Source: Opitutales bacterium (lineage in GTDB: Bacteria > Verrucomicrobiota > Verrucomicrobiia > Opitutales > JABSRG01). Taken from it: a stretch of DNA of 41,732 bases. This document shows, one piece after another, positions 10,185-23,816 of this stretch. The position numbers and the translations under genes are program-made. The stretch covers positions 1 through 41,732 of the forward strand of contig JANQKZ010000002.1 in the NCBI GenBank assembly GCA_028280845.1. The letters are read 5' to 3'. The notes under the pieces were generated by a model, which was not told the DNA's origin, ran no database searches, and saw only the letters and a program-made list of their open reading frames with translations. Position 1 is the stretch's first letter. Each line of letters opens with the position of its first letter.

Positions 10185-10351
10185 CCAAACCCCATCCCCA
10201 ACCTCAATCCCAATCCCCTCTCCTACTCTTACACTTACTCTGTCAAAAAAGCCAAAGCCCCCCATCCCACCTCACGAATCCGGCATCCCGCATCCACATT
10301 TCACAGATCCGTCACCAAATCCCGCTAGACATTAGACACCAGACACGAGAC
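10185..10351. repeat. Composite intergenic repeat module: hexamer array, then two heptamer arrays
   Basis: Between two divergent genes the sequence is almost entirely phased repeats. From 10185 to 10244 run C-rich hexamers that end in CCTACT, CTTACA, CTTACT (CTTACN family). From 10275 to 10295 there are three heptamers CGAATCC, GGCATCC, CGCATCC. From 10324 to 10351 there are four heptamers GCTAGAC, ATTAGAC, ACCAGAC, ACGAGAC. The last array ends 28 bp before the permease start codon. The same hexamer-then-heptamer order recurs at 16170-16282. Confidence 0.6.
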
Positions 10352-10379
10352 ACTCCGCAGAGCCTCTAGCTCTGCCCTC

Positions 10380-12143
10380 ATGTCCCCCCGCTTAGCCAAA
10401 ACCGTATACGGGATCACCACCCTCTTTTTTCTCTGCTTTTTCCTCTGGCCAATCCTTCAAGTCCTGGGCGGTGGCTTCCTCGATGCTGATGGTAACTTTA
10501 CCCTCGCTTATTTCATCGAGGTGTTTCGGAACCCGCTCTACCTCGAGGGCCTGACCAACAGCTTCGGCATGGCGATTTACACCACCCTGCTATCCCTCTT
10601 GATCGCCGTCCCGCTCGCCTTTATCGCAGATCGCTACGACTTCCCCGGAAAGGGGATCTTCATCGCGCTGATTCTCCTCCCGATCATGCTGCCTCCCTTC
10701 GTGGGGGCCATTGGGATCCGGCAAATCCTCGGCCAGTACGGAGTCCTCAACGCCTTTCTCCAACTCACCGGATTCCTCGGCGAGGGCGAAACCATCGATT
10801 GGCTGGGCCAGGGCCGCTTCTGGGGCATCATCATCATGAATGCCCTGAGCCTCTATCCCATTCTCTATTTGAACGCGGTTGCCTCCCTGGCCAACATCGA
10901 TCCTGCCATGGAGGAAGCGGCCGAAAACCTCGGGTGCCGCGGCTTCAGGAAGTTCTTTAAAATCACCCTGCCGCTCATGCGACCCGGGCTCTTCGCCGGG
11001 TGCACCATCGTTTTCATCTGGGCCTTCACCGAGCTGGGTGTCCCCCTCATCTTTGATTACAGCCGGGTCACCTCCGTCCAGATCTTTAATGGCCTCAAGG
11101 ACATCGGCGGCAATCCGTTCCCCTACGCCCTGACCACCGTCATGCTGCTGTTCAGTGTGATTTTCTACCTCGTGGGCAAGGGCCTTTTTGGCCGGAATAC
11201 CTTTGCCATGATGGCCAAGGCCAGTCACATGCGCGAGCCGAGAAAACTCGGTGCAGCAGGAAAAACCTTCTGCCTCGGTGTCTTCGGGCTGGTGACCTTC
11301 CTCGCCTTACTCCCTCACATCGGCGTCGTCCTCATCTCGTTTGCCGGTGACTGGTATAACTCCATACTTCCGCAAAGCCTGACCTTTGGAAACTACGAAC
11401 TCGCCCTCGGGCATAGCCTTACGGTTCCTGCCATTCGCAACAGCCTCCTCTATTCCTCTATCGCGGTATGTTTAAATGTCGTTCTGGGAATCGGGGTCGC
11501 CTACGTGGTCGTCCGCTCCAAATTACCGGGGCGCAATGCCCTTGATACGATGGCCATGCTCCCCCTGGCTGTCCCCGGGTTGGTCATCGCCTTCGGGTAT
11601 TATGCCATGAGCCTTCCCGGAAACTTTTTCCAATTCCCCGTCAACTGGTCTGTCATGCCCTTCTCGACATGGAATAATATGATGGACTGGGTGCGCCTGA
11701 ATTTCTTCAACGTAGCCGAATTTCCCGTCTTTGCCCTCATCATTGCCTATGCCATGCGGAAACTCCCCTTCGTGGTCAGGTCCGCCGTCGCCGGACTCCA
11801 GCAAACCAGCGTCGCCTATGAAGAGGCCGCTCAGAACCTGGGATCGCCCCCCTGGAAAGCCGCCCTCAAAATCACCTTGCCGCTCATCACCGCCAACCTC
11901 CTGGCCGGCGCTCTCCTCGCCTTTTCCCAATCCATGCTGGAGGTCAGCGACTCCTTGATTCTCGCTCAAAAACAGGCCTACTACCCCATCACCAAAGCCA
12001 TTTATGACCTCATGGGCTTCCTCGGTGATGGCAAATTTATCGCCTGCGCCCTCGGGGTCTGGGCCATGATCTTCCTGGGTATCACGATCGGCGGCGCCAG
12101 CATGATCCTCGGCAAACGCCTCGGCGCCATCTTCCGCGTCTAG
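10380..12143 (+). CDS. ABC transporter permease, fused two-domain iron(III)/FbpB type
   Basis: 587-residue inner-membrane permease with about twelve hydrophobic segments. Two BPD_transp_1 domains are fused in one chain, as in FbpB/AfuB-type ferric-iron permeases. Each has an ATPase-contacting EAA loop: EEAAENLGCRGFRKFFKITL near residue 178 and EEAAQNLGSPPWKAALKITL near residue 481. Related permeases carry iron(III), thiamine, putrescine or phosphonates; the fused form favours iron(III), but the substrate cannot be fixed because no periplasmic binding protein or ATPase gene is adjacent. The ATG at 10380 lies just after a heptamer array with no clear ribosome binding site. It converges with the TPR gene downstream. 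Confidence 0.88.
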   Translation: MSPRLAKTVYGITTLFFLCFFLWPILQVLGGGFLDADGNFTLAYFIEVFRNPLYLEGLTNSFGMAIYTTLLSLLIAVPLAFIADRYDFPGKGIFIALILLPIMLPPFVGAIGIRQILGQYGVLNAFLQLTGFLGEGETIDWLGQGRFWGIIIMNALSLYPILYLNAVASLANIDPAMEEAAENLGCRGFRKFFKITLPLMRPGLFAGCTIVFIWAFTELGVPLIFDYSRVTSVQIFNGLKDIGGNPFPYALTTVMLLFSVIFYLVGKGLFGRNTFAMMAKASHMREPRKLGAAGKTFCLGVFGLVTFLALLPHIGVVLISFAGDWYNSILPQSLTFGNYELALGHSLTVPAIRNSLLYSSIAVCLNVVLGIGVAYVVVRSKLPGRNALDTMAMLPLAVPGLVIAFGYYAMSLPGNFFQFPVNWSVMPFSTWNNMMDWVRLNFFNVAEFPVFALIIAYAMRKLPFVVRSAVAGLQQTSVAYEEAAQNLGSPPWKAALKITLPLITANLLAGALLAFSQSMLEVSDSLILAQKQAYYPITKAIYDLMGFLGDGKFIACALGVWAMIFLGITIGGASMILGKRLGAIFRV

Positions 12144-12200
12144 GCGCGTGCATGGCCAGAATGCTCCAACACGGCCTGGCCGTATAAAAAACCACCGTAG

Positions 12201-12239
12201 GGCCACTTGCTTGCAAGTTGGCCAAAACGCCTTTTGGCG
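12201..12239. terminator. Pair of hairpins between convergent genes, possible bidirectional terminator
   Basis: GGCCACTTGC-TT-GCAAGTTGGCC (12201-12223) folds into a stem of about ten pairs with one bulged base. It is followed by AAAA and CGCC-TTTT-GGCG (12228-12239). The site lies between convergent genes, where a shared terminator is expected, but there is no long T-run on either strand. The ACTTGC/GCAAGT core recurs at 23311-23357, so it may instead be a dispersed hairpin repeat. Confidence 0.4.
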
Positions 12240-12272
12240 ATCTTCGCGCCCTTCTGTTAAAAACAAAACAGA

Positions 12273-13661
12273 CTATTGGCGATAAAGCTGTTCCACCTTA
12301 TCCGCTACATCCCGATACATCAGGTCTACGGAATACAAGGCTTTAAACTCTGCTGCCGCCAGCTCTCGGCTCCCCGCTGCTTCGTACGCTAAACCCAATT
12401 CATAAACGATTTCCTTTTTCAAATCGTCCATTTCCTCATATTCGGCTTTGGCCAGCGTCAACTGCTCCCCGGCCATGTCAGCAAATCCCTTCGCTCGATA
12501 CGCCTTCCCCAGATTCAGTAGGCTCATCACCCGCACCTTTGGATGCCGAACAGCCTGCTGAAACTGGGCAATGGCCTCATTCAATAAGCCGTCTTCAAGA
12601 AGCAGAACCCCGAGATCGAACCGGTGGGTCCCTTCATGGGGATATCGTTTCACCAATCGCTCCGCCTCCTCACGCCTGAACTCGCGCAGATCATTCTCCG
12701 CCTGCTCCAGGGCCTCCGCTTGCGGAGTGCCTTCCGCAGTTCCCGCAGCTCGTAGACGCCCCACTTCACCCTCATAATGGGACTTCCGATAATCTGACTC
12801 CAGCCGTTCCAGGGAAACGTCCACCTGCCCCATCGGCGTTGCCCGGGCTCGCCCAATCCACTCGATGGCCGCCTGCCAGTTGCCCACCTTCTGGTAGAGT
12901 CCCGCAATTTCTTTGAGCAGATTCACATCATCAGGCCATGCCTCCAGGGCGGCCTCCGCCCGGGCCAGTAATTGGTCTAACCCGCTCTGGTCCGTCTGAG
13001 CCCGGCTGGCTTGTTCCAACTCGCGGACCGTTTGTTCATCCTTCAGCTTCGACCGGAACCCGCCTTCCGATTCCCAGCCGCCGCTCTGGATCGAATGCGT
13101 CACCGATGCATGCTTCACCAGTTCCTGACCCGCGCTATCCCTGGGGTTGAGCAGCATGAGCCGTTCACCCACTCCAATCGCGGCGGCATGGCGGCCGAGC
13201 TTCAAATAGACCTGCCCCAGGGCTTTCAAATTACTCGCCTGGTCCGGATCAACGGCCCGAATCCCCTCATACGCCAAAGCCGCTGTATTCCAGAGGCCCA
13301 AAGCTTCCGCCGCCTCTCCCAACTGACGATGCGCCTGCACATTCCCCAGATCTTTGGCCAGTAGCATCTCTGCCTGGATCATTGCCTGCTCTGGGTCTTT
13401 ATTCCGCTTCAGACAACCCAAAAACATCGGCGCCCGCGTCACCTTACCCAGCAGACCTTTCGCCCCGCCGGCAGGCCCAGTCCCTTTCGTCTGGGCCTTA
13501 CGCAGAAGGGCCCGCACCTCGTAACACCCGGGAAACCGCTTCAGGATCTCGGTGCACACGGGCACCGCATAGGCCGGATTCCCGGAGTCGGTTGCTTTTT
13601 TTGCATGAGCCACCTGCTGCTGCAACCGCGGGTCCAGTTCAGATAAGGGTATTTCTTCCAT
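12273..13661 (-). CDS. Tetratricopeptide-repeat protein
   Basis: 462 residues, mostly helical TPR units. Visible repeats include NVQAHRQLGEAAEALGLWN, ALAYEGIRAVDPDQASNLKA, LGQVYLKLGRHAAAIGVGE, VNLLKEIAGLYQKVGNWQAA and FDLGVLLLEDGLLNEAIAQF. There is no signal peptide and no catalytic domain, so a cytoplasmic scaffold is likely; residues about 70-90 (GLLGKVTRAPMFLGCLKR) could associate weakly with membrane. It follows glmM on the same strand with a 46-bp gap, so it may be the last gene of a trpD-glmM-TPR operon. The specific role is unknown. Confidence 0.8.
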   Translation of the reverse strand: MEEIPLSELDPRLQQQVAHAKKATDSGNPAYAVPVCTEILKRFPGCYEVRALLRKAQTKGTGPAGGAKGLLGKVTRAPMFLGCLKRNKDPEQAMIQAEMLLAKDLGNVQAHRQLGEAAEALGLWNTAALAYEGIRAVDPDQASNLKALGQVYLKLGRHAAAIGVGERLMLLNPRDSAGQELVKHASVTHSIQSGGWESEGGFRSKLKDEQTVRELEQASRAQTDQSGLDQLLARAEAALEAWPDDVNLLKEIAGLYQKVGNWQAAIEWIGRARATPMGQVDVSLERLESDYRKSHYEGEVGRLRAAGTAEGTPQAEALEQAENDLREFRREEAERLVKRYPHEGTHRFDLGVLLLEDGLLNEAIAQFQQAVRHPKVRVMSLLNLGKAYRAKGFADMAGEQLTLAKAEYEEMDDLKKEIVYELGLAYEAAGSRELAAAEFKALYSVDLMYRDVADKVEQLYRQ

Positions 13662-13707
13662 CCCAACTCAATCGGGATATCAGATCCACGCCCTCCGCTG
13701 TCAATGG

Positions 13708-15066
13708 TCAACCCACAACCGACAGGTCTTTTGACGCCGCTGTAACAAGCGCTCTCAATCCCCGTTGGGCTTCATCCTCCAAGGCATGCTCCGTCAATAA
13801 TCTTAATTTGGGTTCTGTCCCGGAGTAGCGTACCAGGACGCGCCCTTTGCTGCCCCATTGTGTTTCGAGCTCTCGGACCGCAGCCGCAAGCGCAAGACAC
13901 GCTGTCAACGGAGCTTTCTCCTCCACCCGCAGACTCCCGGTTTTCTGGGGAAACAAAGGGATGGCATCCGCCAGTTCTCTCAGGGTTTTCCCCGTTTCCC
14001 GAACCACCTGCAAGGTCATCAATCCAGCCACGAGGCCGTCTCCAGTCATGGCATATTGACCGAAAATAAGGTGGCCACTGTTCTCACCCCCAAAACGGCA
14101 ACCCTCCGCCTTCATCCGCTGGGCGACATTTCGATCACCGATATCCGACCGGTAGACCTCACCTCCATGATCGCGAATAGCCTGATCCAGCCCCCCATTA
14201 CTCTGAACCGTAGCCACCAACTTACCGGAAGTATTCCATCCGGCCGTCATACTGGCCAACCCATGCAAGCCGAGAAGTTGATCCCCATCGATCACCTTCC
14301 CCGTATGATCTACAAAAATGACTCGATCTCCGTCTCCATCGTGCGCCAGGCCAAGCAATGCTGCCTCCGCCCGCACCCACTCCCCCAGCAGCCGAGGATG
14401 CTCGCTCCCGCAGTTCACATTGATTTGTGAACCATCCGGATCGTCCCCAAGCTGGACAACATCTGCCCCCAGCCGCCTTAAGACCTCCGGCGTGACCAGA
14501 CGGGTAGCCCCATTAGCGGTATCCACCACCAGTTTCATTCCGCTTAGATCGAGCTCAGAGAACTGCTTCAGCAGGCCCGCGATATAGCCCTCTACAATCG
14601 CCTCATCAGCATCGGAGTCTGAGCTGGCCTCCGCATCGAAATTGGAATCCAGGTTCCCCAAAAGCCCTTCGATCACAACCTCCTCCGCAGGTTCCAGTTT
14701 CTCTCCTCTCTCATTGAACAACTTAAACCCATTATCCGTTACCGGGTTGTGGGAGGCCGTTATCATCACCCCAAGCTTCGCTTCACGTGCCTTCACCGTC
14801 CAGGCAAGCACAGGGGTGGGCACAATTCCAATGCGTTCGATCCAAAAACCGGGGCCGCTTTCCTGAAGGCCGGCTTCCACCGCTCTCGCCAAATCGGCTC
14901 CCGAGGGTCGCGGGTCTCGACCTATATAGATCGTTCCCTCAGGAACGGATCCCGTGGTCGCAAGCCAACGCCCCAGAGCTTGACCAAAGGCATATGCGAA
15001 GCCGGGATTAATCACCGGTCCTCCCACGGGTCCCCGGATCCCATCAGTACCAAAATAGCGGGTCAT
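13708..15066 (-). CDS. glmM: Phosphoglucosamine mutase GlmM
   Basis: Converts glucosamine-6-phosphate to glucosamine-1-phosphate for UDP-GlcNAc, peptidoglycan and lipid A synthesis. The 452-residue length fits GlmM (about 445). Four family motifs are present in order: the phosphoserine loop MITASHNPVTDNGFK (Ser105), the magnesium loop AHDGDGDRVIFVD, the sugar-binding FGGENSGHLIFG, and the phosphate-binding RYSGTEPKLRLL. The N-terminus YFGTDGIRGPVG is typical of GlmM rather than of phosphomannomutase. Its start codon overlaps the trpD stop by 4 bp (ATGA), implying translational coupling. Confidence 0.95.
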   Translation of the reverse strand: MTRYFGTDGIRGPVGGPVINPGFAYAFGQALGRWLATTGSVPEGTIYIGRDPRPSGADLARAVEAGLQESGPGFWIERIGIVPTPVLAWTVKAREAKLGVMITASHNPVTDNGFKLFNERGEKLEPAEEVVIEGLLGNLDSNFDAEASSDSDADEAIVEGYIAGLLKQFSELDLSGMKLVVDTANGATRLVTPEVLRRLGADVVQLGDDPDGSQINVNCGSEHPRLLGEWVRAEAALLGLAHDGDGDRVIFVDHTGKVIDGDQLLGLHGLASMTAGWNTSGKLVATVQSNGGLDQAIRDHGGEVYRSDIGDRNVAQRMKAEGCRFGGENSGHLIFGQYAMTGDGLVAGLMTLQVVRETGKTLRELADAIPLFPQKTGSLRVEEKAPLTACLALAAAVRELETQWGSKGRVLVRYSGTEPKLRLLTEHALEDEAQRGLRALVTAASKDLSVVG

Positions 15067-16115
15067 CGCATAAAAAAGGACCGGGCATTTTCCAGCCAGG
15101 AAGAAACCGCTCCGCTCTCCACCAGGTCTTTAGCCAGTTCAATCCCGTGAGTCAGGGAATCGGATCGCCGCATCACCCAGAAACCAGCACCTGCGTTCAG
15201 GTAAATCGTTTCCTGAAGACCTGCGGGCCCGCGCCCGTCCAGCAAGGCCAGCAGAGTCTGGAAATTTTCCTCAGCATCCCCTCCGCGAATCTGTTCTACA
15301 TCAGCCAACTGCAAATTCAGGTCTCCCGGTTGATAAGTCACATTGAGATCCTTCAACTCTCCCACCCCTCGAACATAGGAAGGGCCCGCTGTCGTAAATT
15401 TATCCACCACGCCTTCTGGAAAAGTCTTTCCATGGACCACCAACCCACGCGCTAGACCCATCTGGTTCAACGTCTCTGCCAGTGGCTCTACCCAATGCTC
15501 CGAATAAACCCCCATAACCTGATACTTCGGACGAGCCGGATTGATCAGCGGACCTAGAATATTAAAAACGGTCCGCCGTCCTTCCTTGGCCAACTCCATT
15601 CGCACGGGAACAATATGCTTGAACGCCGGGTGGTAGGACCGGGCAAACATGAAAGCAAAATTCAACTCCCGGAGCGCTTGGGTCATCAATTCCACATCCC
15701 CGTCCAGCGGAACCCCCACTCGCTCGAGCAAGTCCGCGGTCCCACTCTTCGAGGTCGCTCCCCGATTCCCATGCTTGATTACCTTGATTCCCGCCGCGGC
15801 TAAAACAAAGCACGTCGTAGTCGAGATATTGAAAGCCCCACTGTGGTCACCTCCAGTACCGACGTAATCAATACCCTCCTGGGCCATTTCTAAAATGGCA
15901 TCACCTGGACTGATGGCCCGTGACAGGAAGGCCTTGGCCATCGCGGCAATTTCCTCTGGAGTCTCTCCCTTCTCACTCAGGGCCACCAGAAAGGCTTTCT
16001 TCGCCTCACCCGACACCGACTCTTGCGCCAGCGCCGCCGCCGCCGCTTCCACCGCGGCCACGTCCAACGACACCCCCTCCTTCAACTGTTCCGTTAATCC
16101 AAGCAGCGTTTCCAT
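15063..16115 (-). CDS. trpD: Anthranilate phosphoribosyltransferase
   Basis: Second committed step of tryptophan synthesis, joining anthranilate and PRPP. The 350 residues carry the PRPP-binding glycine loop VGTGGD (residues 85-90), NISTTTCFVLAAAGI, KHGNRGATSKSGTADLLE (residues 114-131) and the anthranilate-site region RSYHPAFKHIVPVR. The family alternatives (nucleoside phosphorylases) lack GTGGD-x5-NIST. No other trp gene is nearby; the partner is glmM, overlapped by 4 bp. It is divergent from uppP across a repeat-rich 190-bp region that must hold both promoters. Confidence 0.94.
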   Translation of the reverse strand: METLLGLTEQLKEGVSLDVAAVEAAAAALAQESVSGEAKKAFLVALSEKGETPEEIAAMAKAFLSRAISPGDAILEMAQEGIDYVGTGGDHSGAFNISTTTCFVLAAAGIKVIKHGNRGATSKSGTADLLERVGVPLDGDVELMTQALRELNFAFMFARSYHPAFKHIVPVRMELAKEGRRTVFNILGPLINPARPKYQVMGVYSEHWVEPLAETLNQMGLARGLVVHGKTFPEGVVDKFTTAGPSYVRGVGELKDLNVTYQPGDLNLQLADVEQIRGGDAEENFQTLLALLDGRGPAGLQETIYLNAGAGFWVMRRSDSLTHGIELAKDLVESGAVSSWLENARSFFMR

Positions 16116-16169
16116 ATTCCCCTACCCAAGTAAACCTCCCCCCCACTAACAAGCCCAAATCCACAATCC

Positions 16170-16282
16170 CTTACTCCTGCTCTTACGCTTACACCCCTCC
16201 CCACTTCCGGTTTCACCCGCAGGCATTCCCCTCCCCCGGCACTAGACACTAGACACCAGACACTAGACACTAGACACCAGAC
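16170..16282. repeat. Composite intergenic repeat module: CTTACN hexamers, then perfect ACYAGAC heptamers
   Basis: The trpD-uppP divergent gap contains CTTACT, CCTGCT, CTTACG, CTTACA (16170-16193). After a C-rich spacer come six perfect heptamers ACTAGAC, ACTAGAC, ACCAGAC, ACTAGAC, ACTAGAC, ACCAGAC (16241-16282). The array ends 23 bp before the uppP start codon. Both families and their order match 10185-10351. Confidence 0.75.
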
Positions 16283-16305
16283 ACAAAACCCCAAACACTC
16301 CCCAT

Positions 16306-17352
16306 GTGCTCAAAAAGTCCCTTCTCACCAGTCTCTCCTTGCTCCTCTTCTGCTCCACCCTGGGCGCCCAGCAACCAGAGGCCGATACCCGGAACCCAAC
16401 GGCCGGAGACCGGCGTCCGGAAACCACCGTCAACCAGGCACCATCCCGCCTCCTCACCCTGACCTATACCGACGCCGTCATCCTCGGCCTGGTGGAAGGA
16501 ATTACCGAATATCTCCCCATTTCCTCGACGGGCCACCTCATTCTCACCAATGAGCTCCTCGGCCTCAACCAGAACACCCCCCTTACTCCGGATTCCGCTT
16601 CCGCTCCATCTTCACCAAACCCCGAACCCTTCACCCTCAAAGAAGCCGCCGACGCCTACGCCATCATCATCCAGGCTGGAGCCATTGCCGCCGTCGTGCT
16701 GTTATATTGGAAACGGCTGCTCGGCATGGCCGCTGGCCTCCTCGGAAAGGACCCGGAGGGTCTCCGCCTCGCCCGAAACATCATCATTTCATTCATCCCG
16801 GCGGTCATCCTGGGCCTCCTGTTGGATGACCTCATCGAATTCTACCTGTTTGGGCCCGTTCCTGTGATTATTGCGCTGATTGCTGGAGGCATCCTCATGC
16901 TGGCTGTCGAGGGCTGGCGGAAAAAGCAATCTATCTCCACGGAGCAGGGTGGCAGCACGAAGGAACTCGATCTCCCGGATTTATCCGTCAAGCAGGCCCT
17001 CACCATAGGCTTGCTCCAATGTGTCGCCATGTGGCCCGGAACCAGCCGATCCATGATGACCATCGTCGGCGGCTACGTCGTTGGACTCAAACCGGCCCGC
17101 GCCGCAGAATACAGCTTCCTCCTGGGCCTCATAACCCTTTCTGCTGCAGCAGCTTATAAAACACTAAAGAGCGGTGAAATGATGATGCAGGTCCTTGACC
17201 CCGGCCCCGTCCTCCTCGGTATCCTCATCGCCTTTATCTCCGCTGCTCTCGCTATCAAGTGGCTGGTCGCCTACCTCACCAGACATGGCCTCGCCCTCTT
17301 CGCCATCTACCGCTTCTTCCTCGCCGCCCTCGCCGCCCTCTTCCTCCTCTAA
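16306..17352 (+). CDS. uppP: Undecaprenyl-diphosphatase UppP (BacA) with unusual N-terminal extension
   Basis: Integral membrane phosphatase that recycles undecaprenyl pyrophosphate to the lipid carrier used for peptidoglycan and O-antigen. The first catalytic motif EGITEYLPISSTGHLIL starts at residue 64, and the second, WPGTSRSMMTIVGG, near residue 242. Multiple membrane segments follow the normal order, ending in FAIYRFFLAALAALFLL. Two oddities: residues 1-20 resemble a cleavable signal peptide (LLTSLSLLLFCSTLGA) followed by a polar linker encoded by a heptamer array, and a P/S-rich insertion (residues about 84-104) lies between the first motif and the next helix. At 348 residues it is longer than typical UppP (about 270). 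The start used is GTG; an ATG at 16304 is out of frame. Confidence 0.93.
   Translation: MLKKSLLTSLSLLLFCSTLGAQQPEADTRNPTAGDRRPETTVNQAPSRLLTLTYTDAVILGLVEGITEYLPISSTGHLILTNELLGLNQNTPLTPDSASAPSSPNPEPFTLKEAADAYAIIIQAGAIAAVVLLYWKRLLGMAAGLLGKDPEGLRLARNIIISFIPAVILGLLLDDLIEFYLFGPVPVIIALIAGGILMLAVEGWRKKQSISTEQGGSTKELDLPDLSVKQALTIGLLQCVAMWPGTSRSMMTIVGGYVVGLKPARAAEYSFLLGLITLSAAAAYKTLKSGEMMMQVLDPGPVLLGILIAFISAALAIKWLVAYLTRHGLALFAIYRFFLAALAALFLL
16377..16425 (+). repeat. In-frame heptamer array inside uppP (consensus GGNNNCC)
   Basis: Seven consecutive heptamers AGAGGCC, GATACCC, GGAACCC, AACGGCC, GGAGACC, GGCGTCC, GGAAACC encode the polar linker right after the signal-like segment of UppP. Because seven is not a multiple of three, the array translates as a non-repetitive peptide (EADTRNPTAGDRRPETT), hiding the repeat at protein level. 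Confidence 0.5.
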
Positions 17353-21211: not shown

Positions 21212-21290
21212 AATCACACTTCACACTCACAAATCACAGTCTTCCGTGAAAAAATTTCCGACTTCTGATTTCTGCCTTCTAATTTCCGCT
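21212..21290 (+). repeat. Two abutting heptamer arrays spanning the LptE-like gene start
   Basis: Read in sevens from 21212: AATCACA, CTTCACA, CTCACAA, ATCACAG form one family; after two intervening units, ATTTCCG, ACTTCTG, ATTTCTG, CCTTCTA, ATTTCCG form a second family in the same phase. The second array (21254-21288) lies inside the signal peptide coding region. Confidence 0.6.
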
Positions 21291-21773
21291 GGCGCGCTCC
21301 TGTTGCTCTTGGCGACGGGCTGCGCCAGCTACCGGATGGGCTCTGGTAACGAACCGGTCGTCGACTCACTCTACATCGCGCCGGTCGTCAACGATTCGGA
21401 AGCGCCCCAGGCCGTGGTCCCCTTCACCATGGCCTTAAAAGAGGGCTTCATCGAAGACGGGCAAATTGAAATCGTCCTCAGCGAATCCGAGGCGGATGGA
21501 ATCCTCGAAGTCACCCTCTACGATTATGATCGCTTCGTCGGGGCTACGCAGGAATTCGACACCCGCCTCGGGGAAACCTTCCAGACTGTCCTCCGAGGCA
21601 AAGCCACTCTCCGCGAGCGGAACGGAACTATCATCTTCAAAGACCGCCGTTTCACAGTCGATGCTTCCATCATCGCTGGAGAAGACCTCGTCCAGGCCGA
21701 ATACCAGAATATGCCCGCCATCACGCGCGACCTCGCCGAAAAAATCCGCGACGCTGTCCTGGGATCCTGGTAA
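21246..21773 (+). CDS. LptE-like LPS-assembly lipoprotein
   Basis: A GTG at 21246 gives a standard lipoprotein signal: VKKFP, a hydrophobic core ISAGALLLLLATGC and a lipobox ending LATG-C at about residue 26. A TTG start at 21201 would only add residues translated from repeat DNA. The mature part resembles LptE, the lipoprotein plug of the LptD pore for LPS export: SLYIAPVVNDSEAPQAVVPF, SESEADGILEVTLYDYDR, and the closing NMPAITRDLAEKIRDAVLGSW. It lies about 95 bp after the BamD-like gene. Family assignment rests on overall pattern rather than on catalytic residues. Confidence 0.72.
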   Translation: MKKFPTSDFCLLISAGALLLLLATGCASYRMGSGNEPVVDSLYIAPVVNDSEAPQAVVPFTMALKEGFIEDGQIEIVLSESEADGILEVTLYDYDRFVGATQEFDTRLGETFQTVLRGKATLRERNGTIIFKDRRFTVDASIIAGEDLVQAEYQNMPAITRDLAEKIRDAVLGSW

Positions 21774-22653: not shown

Positions 22654-22752
22654 AAAAGACACCAGACATTAGACCTCAGACACTCCCCCGCCCAACTCCC
22701 AGCTCACCCCTCACAATAAACAATTTCGTGTCCTTTCGTATATTTCGTAGTT
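22654..22752. repeat. Three stacked tandem-repeat types between rpe and the VOC gene
   Basis: AAAAGAC, ACCAGAC, ATTAGAC, CTCAGAC (22654-22681) belong to the ACYAGAC heptamer family. CCCAACT, CCCAGCT, CACCCCT, CACAATA (22691-22718) are another heptamer run. TTTCGTGTCC, TTTCGTATA, TTTCGTAGTT (22724-22752) are 9-10-mers that end 13 bp before the next start codon. Confidence 0.6.
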
Positions 22753-23761: not shown

Positions 23762-23816
23762 AATTGAAAGTCTGCCTCCCCAATCCAAAAAATCCAAATC
23801 CAAATCCGTCCCCCTG

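Follow-up and report, generated by a model that had tools for sequence, protein, structure and literature searches.

The 41,732-nucleotide (nt) stretch analysed here, referred to as the window, covers positions 1 to 41,732 of contig JANQKZ010000002.1 in the Opitutales bacterium assembly GCA_028280845.1. Two of its intergenic spacers carry arrays of the heptamer ACYAGAC just ahead of a start codon. These arrays are ordinary members of a genome-wide class of heptamer arrays, and the CTTAC hexamers near them are incidental. The class consists of intergenic heptanucleotide tandem repeats, a known type represented by the short tandemly repeated repetitive (STRR) sequences and long simple sequence repeats. 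The G-richer strand of the arrays nearly always reads 5′ to 3′ away from the nearest open reading frame (ORF), at gene starts and gene stops alike.

Heptamer arrays and their outward polarity

Exact searches of the whole genome (G000; 4.79 Mb in 62 contigs) returned 33 matches to the ACYAGAC dimer ACYAGACACYAGAC on 14 contigs, and none to its reversed control. Approximately 1.70 Mb of this genome was sampled for an array census, with genes called by a simple codon-pair model; gene boundaries are approximate and start codons were picked by score. The sampled contigs were those with ACYAGAC matches, so the density of this word is overstated, while comparisons of period and orientation should be unaffected. 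Several thresholds were tried for the array counts, and the main ones are given. Exact noncoding arrays numbered 40 at a period of 7 nt and between zero and two at every other period from 3 to 20 nt, except for the multiple 14 (nine arrays); a period of 21 nt accounted for 12. Heptamers are nearly confined to noncoding DNA (40 of the 43 exact period-7 arrays), where they adjoin ORF edges. When approximate arrays were counted at a threshold of at least 18/24 matches, period 7 was represented by 53 arrays, compared with 0.4 in shuffled sequence.

Roughly 20 unit words were found among the exact noncoding tandem repeats, nearly all of period 7, and unrelated heptamer families (ACACYAG, ATCCCGY, CTTCYGA and TCACAAY) occur side by side in the one genome. 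Within the 90 nt preceding start codons, every one of the most enriched 8-mers is a sense-strand rotation of ACACYAG, and start-proximal heptamer 8-mers show a sense:antisense bias of about 20:1 (CTAGACAC: 20 versus 1). Some leaders chain different words in a single 7-nt phase, as read by eye in locus L005 (TTTTCAG TTTTCAG ACACCAG AACCCAG ACTCCAG). A possible word grammar, in which the C-rich strand has a single G in each heptamer, was also noted by eye. The 33 genes beside arrays, named mainly from their sequences, are mostly housekeeping genes without a visible theme, and include genes resembling pyrE, tyrS, queA, sucD, def, hisF, rnr, hflX and uppP.

Using five fixed words, 57 of 61 spacers were oriented outward and four inward, the ORF on the 5′ side of the G-word being the closest in the outward cases; this word set includes eight copies of a non-tandem repeat that resembles repetitive extragenic palindromic (REP) sequences, all of them outward. 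The bias was present in every gene configuration, with outward:inward counts of 33:2 for co-directional, 10:0 for divergent and 14:2 for convergent pairs. When only tandem words were counted, the near ORF lay at a median distance of 24 nt and the far one at 130 nt. On the sense strand, arrays no more than 15 bp from a start were C-rich rather than G-rich in a ratio of 30:4 at a loose threshold and 19:2 at a stricter one. Within 15 bp of a stop, the corresponding C-rich:G-rich ratios were 4:25 and 2:11. Random windows near stops were G-rich in 43% of cases (296/688), and the masked background past stops is slightly C-rich, opposite to the arrays. Because this background is not G-rich, the arrays are not mere followers of base skew, and an artefact of base composition at stops was rejected on the same ground.

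The dispersed REP-like repeat GTAGGAGCGACCTTGCGTCGCGA is not tandem, yet it shows the same polarity: in each of its eight noncoding copies the ORF on the 5′ side is the nearer one.

Related repeats were found among 80 loci gathered by a ppk1 search; nearly all of these loci come from metagenome-assembled genomes of Opitutia, which puts the present genome in or near Opitutales. Strict arrays in these loci numbered 24 at period 7 and eight at period 6, the next most frequent period apart from the multiple 14, with at most two at any period that is not a multiple of 6 or 7. Heptamer words vary from genome to genome; the exact ACYAGAC dimer was absent from all 131 other genomes of the order, and one genome of the same family (G002) showed no excess of period 7 across 58 kb of intergenic sequence. 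Starts had C-rich arrays within 40 bp in a ratio of 9:0, and stops G-rich ones in a ratio of 7:1. By gene configuration, the outward bias was significant for co-directional pairs only (27:10).

Relation to known heptanucleotide repeats

Rehm et al. (2015; PMC4692102) observed that in the GGGNATC repeats of Xanthomonas and Nostoc the G-strand nearly always lies nearer its 5′-side ORF, whichever the direction of that ORF, with near and far distances of 28 and 160 nt. The repeats described here share with them the 7-nt unit, intergenic location, placement (here 24 versus 130 nt), inverted pairs and lack of a gene theme. They differ in having many words, in being shorter and more degenerate, in lacking GGG quadruplex potential in 61 of 63 arrays, and in belonging to another phylum.

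The TAACTGA direct repeats of Beggiatoaceae, Cyanobacteria and Bacteroidetes, for which MacGregor (2015; PMC4679880) proposed binding by a post-transcriptional regulator, are likewise heptamers in a single orientation just before starts, usually without a Shine–Dalgarno (SD) sequence. They too are patchy among relatives, and heptamer mixtures are described in Microcystis (PMC4679880). In contrast, the word is another one, a single word dominates in Beggiatoaceae, and here the stop side is about as polar as the start side; TAACTGA is absent from the period-7 words listed for the sampled genome.

Similarly, the STRR sequences of Calothrix and the heptanucleotide long simple sequence repeats of Mrazek et al. 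(2007), as cited in PMC4692102 and PMC4679880, favour period 7, comprise several word families and are noncoding. Geobacter metallireducens carries heptanucleotide elements with the consensus sequences MTYCTGA and GGGACCG, annotated as putative regulator-binding sites; its run of five MTYCTGA units in tandem is similar to the CTTCYGA family, whereas the passages on these elements give no polarity rule of the kind found here (PMC2700814). No earlier report of such heptamer repeats in Verrucomicrobiota was found in the literature searched. This genome provides a new instance of an established repeat type, one in which several words coexist and quadruplex potential is mostly lacking.

Candidate causes of the polarity

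The best explanation, held here with moderate confidence, is that heptanucleotide repeats generated by slippage are tolerated in untranslated regions under a constraint on their orientation. Replication slippage with a strong 7-nt preference, the origin proposed by Mrazek et al. (as cited in PMC4692102 and PMC4679880), would generate and homogenise the arrays, which would survive where they are harmless. As the arrays adjoin ORF edges, those near starts presumably lie within the mRNA leader, where the polarity could reflect selection for an open, G-poor leader, given little use of SD sequences. SD-like 4-mers were found in 15% of genes, compared with 10% in shuffles. Flipping the arrays in silico reduced the accessibility of the start region from 0.558 to 0.443 (p = 0.001). 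An additional cause would be required for the polarity at stops and in convergent spacers, and one candidate is that arrays act as arms of spacer-spanning hairpins, an arrangement seen in some spacers. Genome-wide, the sense strand of the 40 nt upstream of starts is G-poor (about 0.19–0.22) and is C-rich just before the start.

Several results weigh against slippage followed by leader selection. Pure slippage leaves unexplained both the polarity and the recurrence of the same word at unrelated loci. Between loci L198 (18320–18420) and L200 (18885–18979), whose flanking coding DNA is 91–94% identical, the arrays switched words with no clear change in copy number. Native arrays gave an accessibility of 0.558 and letter-shuffled arrays 0.577; being no more open than shuffled ones, they gain nothing structurally from heptamer order itself, and near starts it is orientation and composition that matter. 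Leader selection is also incomplete because convergent spacers hold no start codon, and the polarity found there led to its rejection as the sole cause. In the other Opitutia loci, however, convergent pairs were split 7:5, which is not significant.

It is conceivable, if rather unlikely, that the arrays are instead arms of inverted repeats spanning whole spacers (stop, G-array, C-array, start), which would form RNA or DNA hairpins whose function might be that of a terminator or a processing site. Fold-back template switching would keep the two arms alike, single arrays would be remnants left after one arm had decayed, and the polarity at both ORF ends would be accounted for together. Paired inverted arrays do occur in contigs C59 (37500/37616) and C26 (35279/35372), and at a score of at least 12 spacers with matching inverted ends exceeded cross-paired controls both in the window's genome (10 versus 1.7) and in relatives (10 versus 1.7), a count that also takes in other repeat families. 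In many Opitutaceae genomes, an orthologous spacer upstream of a serine hydroxymethyltransferase-like gene carries one heptamer arm following the stop and its inverted counterpart preceding the start. Across 16 such Opitutaceae spacers, arms from the same genome matched each other more closely than arms from different genomes (13.5 versus 9.8; p = 0.006), and both arms are altered between L198 and L200. Furthermore, 70 convergent pairs of GGGNATC repeats were reported in Xanthomonas campestris (Rehm et al., PMC4692102). Against this, several of the 16 spacers are single-armed, most arrays in the window's genome are unpaired, and the partner arms scoring at least 12 there are about as often direct (five) as inverted (four). 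With so few partner arms, the spacer hairpin is not supported as a general rule in this genome, though it is in some spacers. Less probable still is a role as recognition sites for a multi-gene regulator that binds RNA or DNA, along the lines MacGregor suggested for TAACTGA. Identical words at unrelated genes are consistent with such a role, as is a sense-strand position 0–60 nt ahead of starts, where TAACTGA is placed alike (PMC4679880). It would nevertheless have to embrace many unrelated words under one polarity rule, arrays past stops and between convergent genes, words that vary among related genomes, and neighbours that are mostly housekeeping and thematically diffuse.

The remaining explanations fare worse. 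G-quadruplex or i-motif formation, as proposed for GGGNATC, draws on the placement rule common to the Xanthomonas and Nostoc repeats, and the ATCCCGY family could qualify, but a GGG quadruplex is possible in only two of the 63 arrays and 56 of the others, all clearly skewed in G/C, are still polar (43:13). Such elements are thus very improbable, and the quadruplex was rejected as a general cause on the count of two arrays. Start-proximal tandem repeats are known in pathogens as contingency (phase-variation) repeats that switch genes through leader length (cases cited in PMC4679880). That the present arrays do so is more doubtful again, since most are short and degenerate and their neighbours, which in the window are uppP and an ATP-binding cassette (ABC) permease gene, do not look like genes for surface structures.

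At the orthologous Opitutaceae spacer, the arm words of L198, L200, L224, L228 and L233 vary among genomes and agree inside each. At the orthologous heptamer-arm position in L236, in the 40 nt leading up to the start at about 1505, there is a hexamer array (CTCGTT CTCGTT CTCCTT ...), and periods 6 and 7 may therefore swap places at orthologous sites. Three other spacers, in C13, C22 and L157, have ends formed by inverted dispersed phrases in a layout akin to that of the heptamer pairs (Table 1).

Heptamer arrays have so far been described word by word and lineage by lineage, with separate ideas about quadruplexes, translation control and slippage. Several unrelated words under one outward rule in one genome make the rule separable from any word, and quadruplex formation and leader selection are removed as complete explanations. 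Tentatively, with a chance that we consider low, a process blind to ORF direction may lay down or renew repeats so that one strand always points outward from an ORF edge, across unrelated words and phyla and with a vocabulary of its own in each genome. Candidates for such a process are the addition of repeats at DNA ends and template switching by fold-back within spacer hairpins. The distance to the near and far ORF by strand is a simple statistic applicable to all bacteria, and makes the 2015 observation testable.

The window sites and the hexamers beside them

The preliminary description of the window had proposed that CTTACN hexamers followed by ACYAGAC heptamers form a paired module in two divergent promoter regions. 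Its account of the heptamers holds: arrays are present at both sites, degenerate heptamers follow rpe, and the likeness to cyanobacterial STRR sequences is apt. The gaps to the start codons are also correct, as the first array stops 28 bp short of the ATG of the ABC permease gene, and the exact part of the second stops 23 bp short of the GTG of uppP. Both spacers are divergent, lying between a hypothetical gene and the permease gene and between trpD and uppP, respectively. Judged from the sequence, the probable start of the hypothetical gene is 10169 and not 10265, so the hexamer-like stretch stays inside the spacer. The GTG start of uppP is followed by a signal-like N-terminus. The run after rpe begins 4 bp past the stop codon and breaks the outward rule, its sense strand being C-rich.

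Table 1. Positions of repeats and adjoining genes in the window, with related elements elsewhere in the material
Feature	Position	Strand	Basis or remark
Degenerate 4-unit heptamer array (CTAGACA TTAGACA CCAGACA CGAGACAC)	about 10325..10353	+	Sequence, Tandem Repeats Finder (TRF)
Approximate-array call covering the first window array	C58 10321-10359		Array scan
Heptamer array, ACYAGAC x6 plus degenerate tail (6-7 units)	16241..16289	+	TRF score 76-90
Degenerate period-6 stretch, AATCCC/TACTCT type, not CTTACN	10185..10245	+	19/24 matches at lag 6
CTTAC-containing stretch, weak 6-nt periodicity	16170..16193 (scored over 16170-16199)	+	14/24 at lag 6, reached by 1.6% of intergenic windows
Heptamer array of a different word family (TTCCGAC TTCTGAT TTCTGCC ...)	21256..21286	+	TRF; spacer ahead of gene called at 21336
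Degenerate heptamer run (AGACACC AGACATT AGACCTC AGACACT)	22657..22682	+	TRF
Two-domain ABC transporter permease gene, downstream of first array	10380..12143	+	Best match TIGR03262 (PhnU2-like), under its cut-off
uppP (undecaprenyl-diphosphatase) gene, downstream of second array	16306..17352	+	NCBIfam TIGR00753 and NF001390, slightly under cut-offs
REP-like repeat GTAGGAGCGACCTTGCGTCGCGA, spacer starts	G000 C13 130552, C22 180604, C42 25004 and 26113, C50 71526, C53 96738		
Inverted phrases at spacer ends: CACGGAG..ACACAGAG, GCAAAGACGC, CAGATGAACACAGAT	C13 42407-42848, C22 66886-67287, L157 4742-4881		

The hexamer half of the proposal was not borne out. The exact CTTACN dimer CTTACNCTTACN had eight matches genome-wide compared with 26 for its reversed control; six of the eight have no heptamers nearby, and the remaining two belong to the window. 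The supposed CTTACN array at the first site is built of AATCCC and TACTCT units, and the hexamers said to follow ppk1 score 11/24 at lag 6, a level met by 18% of windows. The order of hexamers before heptamers, described as conserved, was found in one of the 17 spacers of the sampled DNA that hold a heptamer 14-mer, and that one is the window's; the other window site lacks an exact 14-mer and hence falls outside this count. Period-6 arrays as a whole form a weak, degenerate class (53, as opposed to 17 in shuffled sequence; harmonics appear at 12 and 18), in which, at small numbers, no polarity was seen. Spacers with both period-6 and period-7 arrays numbered five, against 5.1 expected; at the strictest cut-offs co-occurrence gave p of about 0.04, uncorrected for the cut-offs tried. 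Although the two parts do stand in the same order at two window sites, the pattern is not repeated beside other heptamer arrays, and a two-part promoter module is extremely improbable. The paired module was ruled out by the lack of CTTACN enrichment together with chance-level sharing of spacers by the two periods.

The suggestion that the arrays go beyond random placement survives for the heptamers. The genome-wide search found them strongly associated with gene starts and with a single strand, and found no link between them and the hexamers, whose word is not enriched. The promoter-region frame is too narrow, and a promoter module is the wrong frame, because heptamers of many words also lie at gene ends and between convergent genes. 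Such arrays should not be mistaken for operators or promoter modules serving the genes downstream of them.

An Rfam scan of the window returned tRNA only and no other known RNA family. Between divergent genes at 23790–23807, the window also holds a perfect AAATCC x3 repeat, the sole exact noncoding period-6 array in the sampled DNA.

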